DNA of 64,000 bases, taken from an uncultured Rhodospira sp. Its GTDB lineage: Bacteria > Pseudomonadota > Alphaproteobacteria > Rhodospirillales > Rhodospirillaceae. The stretch lies in NCBI RefSeq assembly GCF_937138205.1, contig NZ_CAKZOT010000080.1, positions 1-64,000 of the forward strand. Direction: 5' to 3'. Shown here piece after piece: positions 2,603 through 35,910 of the stretch. Within the stretch, counting starts at the first letter, position 1, and the number at the start of each line of letters is the position of its first letter. The notes beneath the pieces were generated by a model, which did not search any database, had not been told where the DNA came from, and saw only the letters and a program-made list of their open reading frames with translations. The translations under genes were made by a program, and so were the position numbers.

Positions 2603-2944
2603 TCAGGGCTGGCCCGGCGTGTAGAAATCCGGGCGCGCCAGGTCGGCGCTGCCCTCACGCTTCGTCTCCTGATCGAGCGACTGGATCGCCTCGGCCAGCG
2701 CGTCGCACCGAGTGCCATGGGCCCGCGCCCGCCCGGCGTCGGTTCGCGCCGCGTCCCGGACGGTGCGGTCCAGGCATTCGGCCTGATAACGGGCCATGAG
2801 GTCCGCCGGTGCCAGGGTGTCGATCGCCGATTCGGCCGCGCGGACCTGGCCCCAAGATCCGCAGGCCCAAGACCCGCAGGTCAGGACCGCGACCGCCAAC
2901 ACGGCGGGAACGCGGCGCGGGTTGCCTCCGAACGGCCGCATCAT
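2603..2944 (-). CDS. Hypothetical exported protein
   Basis: N-terminal hydrophobic signal-like segment; start overlaps phaC stop. Confidence 0.55.
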   Translation of the reverse strand: MMRPFGGNPRRVPAVLAVAVLTCGSWACGSWGQVRAAESAIDTLAPADLMARYQAECLDRTVRDAARTDAGRARAHGTRCDALAEAIQSLDQETKREGSADLARPDFYTPGQP

Positions 2945-4755
2945 CAGACCGCCCGCATCTTCACGTAGCTGCCCGGGGCGTCCTCAATCGGCTTCAATTC
3001 GCCCTCGCCGGGCTGGCGCGCCGGCACCTGCTCGCCGGCGTGGCGGCCGATCCACTTCTGCCAGTCCGGCCACCAGGAGCCGGGGTGCTCGGTCGCCGCG
3101 CCCAGCCAGGTTTCCGGATCCTTGGACCGGCTGTTGCTGATCCAGTGGCAGTACTTGTTGGACGCCGGCGGGTTGATGACGCCGGCGATGTGGCCCGACG
3201 CCGCAAGCACGAACCGCACCGGCCCCTTGTAAAGCTGGGCGCTTCGGAACGTCGAGACCCAGGGCGCGATGTGGTCCTCGCGTGCGGACAGGAAATACGA
3301 CGGCGTCTTGACCTTCGTCAGGTCAATGGGGACATCCCCGATGGTCACCGCGCCGGGCTCCTTCAGCGCGTTTTCGAGGTAGCACTTGCGTAGGTAAAAA
3401 CTGTGCATGGCCGCCGGCATCCGTGTGCTGTCGGAGTTCCAGTACAGCAGGTCGAACGGGAACGGCTCCTTGCCCATCAGGTAGTTGTTCACCACGAACG
3501 ACCAGATCAGGTCGTTGGAGCGCAGCATGTTGAAGGTGGTCGCCATCTCGGCGCCGTCCAGATAGCCGCGCTCGAACATCTCCTTTTCCAGGTGGTCGAT
3601 GGTGGTCGGGTCGATGAAGACCCCCAGTTCGCCGGGTTCGGAGAATTCCATCAGCGTCGTGAAGTGGGTCGCCGAGGCGATCCGGTCCTCTTGCCCCTTG
3701 GCATGGAGCCACCCCAGCGTGACACCAAGCAGCGTGCCACCCAGGCAATAGCCGATGGCGTTGACCGTGCGTTCTCCCGTGGCCTTCTCGATGGCGTCGA
3801 GCGCCTCCAGCGGCCCTTCCAACAGGTAATTGTCGAACGTGATGTCGCGGTAGGACTCGTCCGGGTTCACCCATGAGATGGTGAACACCGTGTGCCCCTG
3901 GGAGACGGCCCAGCGGATGAACGAGTTCTTCTCGCGAAGGTCGAGAATGTAGAACTTGTTGATCCAGGGCGGGACGATCAGCAGCGGCCGCTTGGCCACC
4001 GTGTCCGTCGCCGGCGCATACTGGATGAGCTGCATCAGCCGGTTCTGGTGCACGACCTTGCCCGGCGTGGTGACGATGTTCTCGCCCACCTTGAAGGCGT
4101 TCTCGTCCGTCATGGTGATGCGCAGCTGGCCCTTGCCGCGCTCCAGGTCGGCCAGCATGTGTTCCAGACCGTGCAGCAGGCTCTCGCCATTGGTCTCGAT
4201 GGCCGTGCGCAGGACCTGGGGGTTGGTCATGACGAAGTTGGTGGGCGCCATGGCATCGACGAGCTGGCGGGTGTAGAACTCCACCTTGCGCGCGGTCGGG
4301 CTGCCCTCGCCCTCGACGTCGTGAACGAGCCCGAGCAGCCAACGCGACGTGAGCAGGTACGACTGCTTGATGAAGTCGTACACCTCGTTTTCCTGCCACA
4401 TCTCGTCGCGGAAACGGTGATCGCTCTTCTCTGGACGGACCAGCGGTTCCGTCTCCTGGCCGAGCCAGCGCTGGGCCGCGTTCTGCCACAGCGACATGTA
4501 CTCCTGCCAGAGATTGAACTGCGCCTCCATGATCTTGGCCGGATTGGCCATCATCTTGGCGGTCATGTCCAGGAACGCCTCGCTGACGTTCAGCGGGTCG
4601 CCGAATGGCAGGCCGCCGTTGCCGGACGCCTGGCGGCTGAGGAAATCGCTGACCAGATGCTGGCCGTGTTCGGCGATCTCCGTCATCGCCCGGGCGAATT
4701 CCTGCGGGTCCGGGTGCTTCGGAATCTCGTCGGTCTTGCCCTGTTGATCGGCCAT
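2944..4755 (-). CDS. phaC: Class I poly(R)-hydroxyalkanoate synthase
   Basis: PLLIVPPWINKFYILDL, lipase-like box GYCLGGT, DHIAPW, SGHIAGVINPP. Confidence 0.95.
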   Translation of the reverse strand: MADQQGKTDEIPKHPDPQEFARAMTEIAEHGQHLVSDFLSRQASGNGGLPFGDPLNVSEAFLDMTAKMMANPAKIMEAQFNLWQEYMSLWQNAAQRWLGQETEPLVRPEKSDHRFRDEMWQENEVYDFIKQSYLLTSRWLLGLVHDVEGEGSPTARKVEFYTRQLVDAMAPTNFVMTNPQVLRTAIETNGESLLHGLEHMLADLERGKGQLRITMTDENAFKVGENIVTTPGKVVHQNRLMQLIQYAPATDTVAKRPLLIVPPWINKFYILDLREKNSFIRWAVSQGHTVFTISWVNPDESYRDITFDNYLLEGPLEALDAIEKATGERTVNAIGYCLGGTLLGVTLGWLHAKGQEDRIASATHFTTLMEFSEPGELGVFIDPTTIDHLEKEMFERGYLDGAEMATTFNMLRSNDLIWSFVVNNYLMGKEPFPFDLLYWNSDSTRMPAAMHSFYLRKCYLENALKEPGAVTIGDVPIDLTKVKTPSYFLSAREDHIAPWVSTFRSAQLYKGPVRFVLAASGHIAGVINPPASNKYCHWISNSRSKDPETWLGAATEHPGSWWPDWQKWIGRHAGEQVPARQPGEGELKPIEDAPGSYVKMRAV

Positions 4756-34019: not shown

Positions 34020-34183
34020 GGGCTCCTCCGGGAGGGGCTAAAGACAGGGCGGACGCCAAACGCGGCCCCGTGTGGGCACACGGGCCGTGCGTGGCTGGGT
34101 CGCATCAGGTGGCGCCCGTTCTAACGGAGGATCACCGGGCGGGCAATGGGGTGGGGGGCGAAGCGAGTCTCTTGGTTGGGTGT

Positions 34184-34705
34184 TCACGACCCGTCCAAAT
34201 CGTCTTCTTTTTTTGCCAAGGTCACAAGATCATGCTGCAATGGTTGTGGTGGCCCTATGACCAAGGCCTCGCCGTCCCGTCTGCGAAAGGTACCGCTCAG
34301 CCCGAGCAGATCATTTCCGTCAAACGTGTGCATCTCATCACAATTGGAGAACAATGCAGTGGCGAGGTGAATGGCATCGTTTGGTTTTTTTATCTTCGGA
34401 TGGCGACGAAAAAGATTTCTGGCATGTGTAGCTATAGAAGGGGAAAGATCAATAATATCAAAAAAATCGTTGTCCCAAAATCGATCCAATAAGTGATCGT
34501 GCTGTTCCTGAAAATATTCCCTCGTTTTTCCGTCTTCGCACCTAACCTTGCATACTTCTGACAGCGTCAATGTAGAAGTTACAATAACAAGATCTCCTTT
34601 TTCTGCGGCCGTATATATGCTGCGACATATGGGAAATCTTCCATCTTCCTGTTGAATAAGGCTAATAAAGCAGCACGAATCCCAGTATATGCGCTTTTCA
34701 GCCAT
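34184..34705 (-). CDS. PIN-domain ribonuclease-like protein
   Basis: MAEKRIYWDSCCFISLIQ; acidic-residue spacing consistent with PIN (LSEV, KPNDAIHLATALFSNCDEMHTFDGND). Confidence 0.75.
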   Translation of the reverse strand: MAEKRIYWDSCCFISLIQQEDGRFPICRSIYTAAEKGDLVIVTSTLTLSEVCKVRCEDGKTREYFQEQHDHLLDRFWDNDFFDIIDLSPSIATHARNLFRRHPKIKKPNDAIHLATALFSNCDEMHTFDGNDLLGLSGTFRRRDGEALVIGPPQPLQHDLVTLAKKEDDLDGS

Positions 34706-35555
34706 CTCCGCCTCTTAGCATGTCAACGTAGTTCTCAGATTTCATGCCGCCGGTAAACGTGTCATCCAAAATAGCGTCAAGGCCGACAGCAGAAAAACTA
34801 ATAATGTCCAACGCCTCGGCTTCAATATAGCGGATATCACCACCGTCACCGTAGTATTTGCGGCCGACAACACGAACCCGCTTTCCTTCCCATACATCCG
34901 TTAATGTCTTATCCATTCCAACGTTCTTGGCGCGCGTTTCGGTCAGACGACAAGTAATGCGGTCTCCGCCCTTGGTCAAGATCCAGAAGGCGGGCCGATT
35001 TCGGTATTCCCCAACATTTTGAATACGGCCGAAGACCTCGCCAAAGGAGGTATGTTTCGGAATGTCACTTCCAGCAGGAATTTCATATAACTCAATATGA
35101 TCAAGGGCCGTTTTGGAGATGTGTGGGGTAATATGGATAACGTTGTCGTCTTCCCCACGTCGATATACACGTGTCAGGCCGATCCGTTCTTGGTGTCGTT
35201 GCAGTATACGTTTTCCGACCACCAATCCCTTTCGGTCCAACCAGTCCGGGATGCCCGTATTGATGTCACCCAAAAGGCCTCTCATTGCGTCAGAAGCCCG
35301 GGCAAAGTCGGCGTCGGCCTCGCCGCTCACATCGGTGCCCTCTTCGGTCGCTTCTGGTGCGATTTCCACCGTTAGGGGGCTGTTGGTCGTGGCTGCTTTC
35401 AAGACCCAGGTATAACGGCACACGTTTCCCCTGGCTCGTGCGGGCGCGCGCAACCACTCCACCAAATCGAGGATTTGGTGCATCGCATCATCGATCGCGA
35501 GGGGCTTCGTCTTCCCGCCGCTCGGCTGAACGACAAATACGTAGGACTTGCTCAT
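34698..35555 (-). CDS. Hypothetical protein, 285 aa, partner of the PIN-domain gene
   Basis: Overlaps the PIN ORF by 8 bp; beta-rich C-terminal half (FGEVFGRIQNVGEYRNRPAFWILTKGGDRITCRLTE...VWEGKRVRVVGRKYYGDGGDIRYIEAEALDI). Confidence 0.7.
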   Translation of the reverse strand: MSKSYVFVVQPSGGKTKPLAIDDAMHQILDLVEWLRAPARARGNVCRYTWVLKAATTNSPLTVEIAPEATEEGTDVSGEADADFARASDAMRGLLGDINTGIPDWLDRKGLVVGKRILQRHQERIGLTRVYRRGEDDNVIHITPHISKTALDHIELYEIPAGSDIPKHTSFGEVFGRIQNVGEYRNRPAFWILTKGGDRITCRLTETRAKNVGMDKTLTDVWEGKRVRVVGRKYYGDGGDIRYIEAEALDIISFSAVGLDAILDDTFTGGMKSENYVDMLRGGDG

Positions 35556-35682: not shown

Positions 35683-35910
35683 TCAAGCGGCATTCAGAGC
35701 CCGCGCCTCCGCCATGATCTCGTCCAGCGATTTGTCGCTGACGCCGCTGGCCAGTCCCTCGTCGATGGCGCGCTGAAGCCCGGCCCGGGCGTGGTCGCGC
35801 TGGATCAGGTCGCGGACGGTGGCGCCAACGTCGGCATACCCGCCGGCGCTCGCCTGGGTCTCGCACCACGTCTTCAGGGGCTCGGGGAGGGAAACCGTGA
35901 CATGATCCAT
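35683..35910 (-). CDS. ParD-family antitoxin
   Basis: MDHVTVSLPEPLKTWCETQASAGGYADVGATVRDLIQRDHARAGLQRAIDEGLASGVSDKSLDEIMAEARA. Confidence 0.85.
   Translation of the reverse strand: MDHVTVSLPEPLKTWCETQASAGGYADVGATVRDLIQRDHARAGLQRAIDEGLASGVSDKSLDEIMAEARALNAA

Follow-up and report, generated by a model that had tools for sequence, protein, structure and literature searches.

The window analyzed here, a 64,000-nucleotide stretch of DNA from an uncultured Rhodospira sp., carries a horizontally acquired unit of two genes, one for a PIN-type RNase and one for a large partner protein with an OB fold. It has the appearance of a toxin-antitoxin (TA) or anti-phage module of a type not yet described; the open-licence literature yielded no account of a PIN/OB-fold pair or of such cargo in IS1595 elements. 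With moderate confidence and without any experiment, we interpret it as a mobile TA-like module in which the PIN RNase is an effector bound, restrained and controlled by its OB-fold partner.

The gene pair and the site it occupies

Both genes lie on the minus strand. The partner gene (34698-35555), supported as an ORF with full-length homologues, encodes 285 aa and shares 8 bp (34698-34705) with the gene for the PIN-domain nuclease (34184-34705, 173 aa). The preliminary description, made from the letters alone, had delimited the two ORFs in this way and had found them visibly more AT-rich than their surroundings. Both observations hold, as local GC is 45-54% in the pair region versus 65-78% in the flanks, with whole-ORF values of 44.8% for the PIN gene and 53.5% for the partner gene, and GC3 is 0.44 and 0.58, respectively, against about 0.9 in the neighbors (0.91 in the ABC-F gene and 0.88 in the histidine kinase gene). 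A chance overlap of reading frames was ruled out, since both proteins are conserved over their full length, at ~20-40% identity, in many genomes. The call of a PIN ribonuclease was likewise confirmed by a match to Pfam PF01850 (E 7e-12) with all four catalytic acids intact. These residues (D9, E50, D110 and D129) are invariant in 17 PIN homologues from 17 loci, and from this conservation we infer that the window copy is likely to be catalytically competent. The PIN profile had no significant match among PDB sequences.

The window flanks align to a same-genus relative (G004) up to position 34051 and from position 35700, and nothing aligns between them. In G004, an intact parD-parE pair (L064 989-1502; ParE PF05016, E 4.7e-12) precedes the ABC-F gene. 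The window holds an orphan ParD-like antitoxin gene (35683-35910, minus strand; TIGR02606, E 1.3e-8, below the curated cut-off), whose product is 70% identical to the ParD of G004, where parE then follows. Because the pair stands where G004 has parE, we conclude that it was acquired, within the segment 34052-35699, and that an orphan parD was left; judged from sequence, the window parD is thus read as the leftover of a parD-parE pair. No transposon ends are left at the window locus. ParD as a third component of the unit was ruled out: its presence is accounted for by the parD-parE site of G004, and in the other loci read no ParD was noticed next to the pair.

Conservation of the unit and architecture of the partner

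In 22/22 distinct loci, the partner gene is directly followed by a PIN gene, intact or as a frameshifted remnant, with overlaps mostly of 4-17 bp (L007 is counted as PIN positive, its automated "no PIN" call being a motif miss). A PIN-first profile search of the class, independent of the partner, gave 13 matches in 12 of 385 genomes. An ORF of 250-288 aa precedes the PIN gene in all 13, and pairs were recovered even where the partner profile had missed the partner. As a control, the ORFs upstream of resolvable ordinary PIN genes of the same genomes were mostly short and of the Phd/RHH/AbrB type or other, versus 285-287 aa in the unit. Furthermore, partner and PIN distances diverge together (Mantel r 0.872, 19 pairs, 0/10,000 permutations). 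Given this co-occurrence in both search directions and this correlation (r 0.87), the partner and PIN genes form one unit.

The partner is present in about 2% of sampled alphaproteobacterial genomes and the pair in about 2-3% of class genomes. It occurs in one of five same-genus relatives (L002) and on a Methylobacterium plasmid (L003), and further loci include a metagenome-assembled genome (MAG) labelled Bacteroidetes (L026), which is possibly mis-binned. Profile comparison joins the divergent partners to the family (250-aa branch, 98.7%; phage branch, 99.6%; L074, 94.9%; L077, 66%), and in the same comparison the L076 partner, found by position, shows no significant sequence similarity to it.

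The decay of the pair is mostly one-sided. The PIN gene is frameshifted or interrupted beside an intact partner in three loci (L006, L013 and L071). The only broken partner, in L026, is broken in its N-terminal half only, and an ATG-started ORF with the OB fold and tail is kept beside an intact PIN gene. This pattern fits a PIN protein that is harmful and is held in check by the partner's C-terminal half, but the support is only indirect, with a small sample and possible assembly errors. A gene for a HipA-like kinase (2939-4189) lies ~0.8 kb upstream of the pair in L026, where two TA-type units may be clustered.

Scans of the partner against Pfam, NCBIfam, PADLOC and PHROGs returned no match beyond chance level, and neither its sequence nor its profile matched PDB sequences significantly. 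An AlphaFold model built with an 18-sequence alignment (pLDDT 83) predicts an alpha/beta N-terminal domain followed by an OB fold. The former (residues 1-165; 35061-35555, minus strand) has near-invariant D23, Q27 and S59-P60 in the alignment and reaches pLDDT 92 and pTM 0.87 when modelled alone. Its predicted fold contains no RHH, AbrB or HTH, and a fold search gave no confident PDB structural match; the weak matches include ferredoxin-like proteins, HUH nucleases and, at rank 48, the TRADD N-domain. For the C-terminal domain (residues 168-252; 34800-35054, minus strand), Foldseek retrieved LysRS OB domains, SSBs and Stn1 (probability 1.00, E from 2.6e-4), with modest aligned TM-scores, and its five-stranded barrel meets the criterion of the OB-fold superfamily. 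A tail follows (residues 259-285; 34701-34781, minus strand) with the consensus DxDFTGGLxxxEYLxxLRxG (alignments A5, A6 and A11), a modelled helix at 273-280 and an Arg281 that is invariant in the 18-member alignment A6. Its role as a toxin-binding segment is inferred, without binding data. In a viral structure library, three phage proteins match the partner model over its full length (E 1.5e-9 to 1.7e-7), one of them annotated as DUF6575 (E 6.5e-9), with modest TM-scores (0.34-0.42). The DUF6575 profile (PF20215) found no match in Pfam scans of the partners and none in the partner's own genome, and a search of 299 genomes gave two marginal matches only.

These results agree with the preliminary description, which had portrayed the partner as far too large for a classical antitoxin, devoid of RHH, AbrB or HTH and beta-rich and OB-like in its C-terminal half, and had set the pair apart from standard vapBC. 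The profile scans, the AlphaFold fold and Foldseek bear this out, and the partner does not meet the vapBC criterion of a small DNA-binding antitoxin. Structure prediction of the 285-aa protein and conservation of gene neighborhoods had been proposed there as checks; across genomes the pair proved to keep its gene order and much the same overlap. The IS1595 and prophage settings, and the location of the unit at a relative's parE position, lay beyond what the letters alone could show. Neither of the outcomes named as refuting the idea, membership of the partner in a known antitoxin or housekeeping family and absence of the pair elsewhere, was met, as no such family was matched and the two genes were found together at all partner and PIN loci above.

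Carriage by IS1595-type transposons and temperate phages

The clearest view of the mobility of the pair comes from a Rhodobacteraceae MAG with five copies in an IS1595-type element (L020-L024). Four of them (L021-L024) lie in an intact 2.93-kb element bounded by 22-bp terminal inverted repeats (TIRs; GGGAATTATATACCAAAGTCAC) and four different 8-bp AT-rich target duplications (TSDs), with an IS1595-type transposase upstream of the pair (PF12762, E 3.9e-39). Two further insertion sequences, which on inspection resemble IS66 and IS4, interrupt the L020 copy. Four more elements of 2.7-3.4 kb (L003, L015, L017 and L018) have terminal repeats and perfect 8-bp duplications. Thus, the pair is cargo of five IS1595-type elements, each with TIRs and perfect 8-bp TSDs and one of them multicopy, and the criterion for an IS1595 passenger (transposase, TIRs and 8-bp TSD) is met in all eight of these loci, L020 not included. 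Additionally, IS1595-type transposases or their fragments lie upstream in L004, L016, L025, L072, L076 and L077 (the fragments in L076 and L077 were recognized by eye). That IS1595 elements can carry passenger genes is already known (PMC5704250, citing Siguier 2009). A third small gene follows the PIN gene in L072 (1076-1516) and L076 (2024-2236), both IS1595 associated; the two share the motif KFxxAARELxCDxDE and are possibly extra cargo of the element. At the window copy, no IS1595 transposase or TIR was found nearby and the passenger criterion is not met; a recent IS1595 insertion was ruled out there, in the absence of TIR, TSD and transposase.

The pair is also carried by temperate phages. 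In Pseudomonas phage vB_PaeS_AV001 (PQ349086), it comes directly after an S24-type repressor, and an unrelated prophage contig (L036) has the identical order of S24 repressor, partner and PIN. Hence, two unrelated temperate phages have the pair directly behind a CI-type repressor. This is the rexAB position, which is typical of genes expressed in lysogens. Partners of the AV001 type also occur in four IMG/VR contigs. The phage copies were reached only through the divergent L029/phage branch, and scans of viral contigs with the window partner and that of L008 as queries returned nothing. The PIN nuclease of AV001 (L031 6761-7294) is deposited in GenBank as "repressor protein", apparently a misannotation.

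Proposed function and comparison with known systems

In the mechanism that we propose, the free PIN RNase would be harmful to the cell. The 285-aa partner would be made first, with its translation coupled to that of the PIN protein by the overlapping stop and start, and would bind and restrain the nuclease, most likely via the conserved tail FTGGxxxxEYLxxLRxG with its invariant Arg (no co-fold is available). The OB fold may bind the PIN substrate or single-stranded nucleic acid (RNA or DNA), and in this way sense or direct. The most likely benefit would be a stabilized carrier element and, in prophages, the stopping of rival phages by abortive RNA cleavage. Toxicity, neutralization by the tail and nucleic-acid binding are all inferred. 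The prophage position suggests a defense role, as does the structural similarity of the partner to a DUF6575 phage protein, but neither demonstrates it; the pair is probably used against phages too.

Some observations sit uneasily with a TA-like module. The partner is far larger than type II antitoxins and has no recognized DNA-binding antitoxin domain, some of the PIN losses may be assembly errors, and the L076 partner is placed in the family by position without significant sequence support. The unit might instead be a dedicated anti-phage system and not an addiction module, with an OB-fold protein that recognizes phage RNA or single-stranded DNA and recruits or activates the PIN nuclease, acting as a sensor or guide and not as an antitoxin. 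Nucleic-acid binding is typical of OB folds, the place directly behind a CI-type repressor in two unrelated temperate phages is that of lambda rexAB, and the partner model resembles the DUF6575 protein over its full length, but this last link is structural only, with modest TM-scores and no sequence match. We nevertheless find such a system rather unlikely, given that PADLOC models were unmatched (no match at E 0.01 for ten family members, and only a chance-level E of 0.074 for the window partner), that the window neighborhood is unlike a defense island and that an intact partner persists beside a broken PIN gene in three loci. A broader conjecture, which we advance only tentatively, is that these pairs are widespread and undescribed PIN-based immune modules, spread by IS1595, in which the OB-fold partner is both an inhibitor, through its tail, and a sensor of foreign single-stranded nucleic acid, and whose prophage copies beside the repressor exclude other phages.

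Alternatively, the pair could regulate or aid the transposition of IS1595 elements. In many loci the transposase gene immediately precedes the pair on the same strand, the elements are bounded by TIRs and TSDs, one of them being multicopy, and a comparable role has been proposed for the TA pairs of Tn3 transposons (PMC7157771). This is improbable, however: neither transposase nor TIRs lie near the pair in about half of the loci, the window among them, and the phage copies carry none. Least credible of all is a housekeeping RNA-processing pair of the host: PIN and OB folds are both generally known from RNA-processing enzymes, but this explanation is contradicted by a sporadic distribution (only about 2-3% of class genomes and one of five same-genus relatives), together with the very low GC3 and the association with mobile elements. 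We therefore retain a mobile TA-like module as our interpretation.

Few groups of TA effectors are as large as the PIN toxins, and the partner families that the surveys consulted here describe for them are small proteins that bind DNA. With a recurrent large OB-fold partner, a PIN RNase would be controlled in a new way, possibly through direct sensing of nucleic acid, and many genes now listed as "VapC without VapB" or "hypothetical protein" would be re-labelled. Carriage by simple transposons and behind phage repressors makes the question of defense or addiction testable with one compact operon, including the Pseudomonas phage copy.

Among known systems, one that was selected for phage resistance in E. 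coli has DUF6575 (PF20215) as a component (PMC9519451). A phage DUF6575 protein is structurally similar to the whole partner; in contrast, the partner has no PF20215 sequence match, and a PIN neighbor is not established for DUF6575. For TRADD-N, the study of the bacterial domain marks a conserved serine at the beta2-beta3 turn (PMC8195603), where the partner has its conserved Ser-Pro, and 1f3v_A appears among the weak N-domain matches. However, the values of this match (E 0.29, probability 0.41, TM 0.35), the absence of a Pfam match and the lack of an effector/STAND architecture in the partner leave the modelled resemblance a lead only. TRADD-N is a domain known from bacterial immunity proteins.

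The first RexAB product has about 280 aa, like the partner, and we know of no sequence relation between RexAB and the PIN/OB-fold pair, no alignment having been made. RexAB, as is generally known, also consists of two genes directly behind a phage repressor; its second gene encodes a membrane protein, that of the pair a PIN nuclease. The systems compared here are lambda RexAB and prophage-encoded systems of the RexAB type (PMC12894663). The TA passengers of Tn3-family transposons (PMC7157771) are likewise TA-like pairs that lie next to the transposase within a transposon, and PIN toxins occur in some of them; they differ in antitoxin families and in the transposon family, as the pair rides IS1595. 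That survey included no OB-fold partner, and none is among the families of PIN partners that Makarova 2009 (PMC2701414) describes in its section 9.

With VapBC, the pair has in common two overlapping genes in one operon, the regulator first and the PIN RNase second, the same four acids and a sporadic, mobile distribution, and the PIN gene of the pair on the Methylobacterium plasmid is auto-annotated as "VapC family toxin". The criteria of a PIN toxin with four acids and of an upstream, overlapping partner gene are met; that of a small RHH/AbrB/Phd/HTH antitoxin is not, as the partners have 250-300 aa (285 aa in the window), with an alpha/beta N-domain and an OB fold. Consequently, the unit is TA-pair-like in architecture and distribution, yet its membership in VapBC is excluded by the antitoxin criterion.
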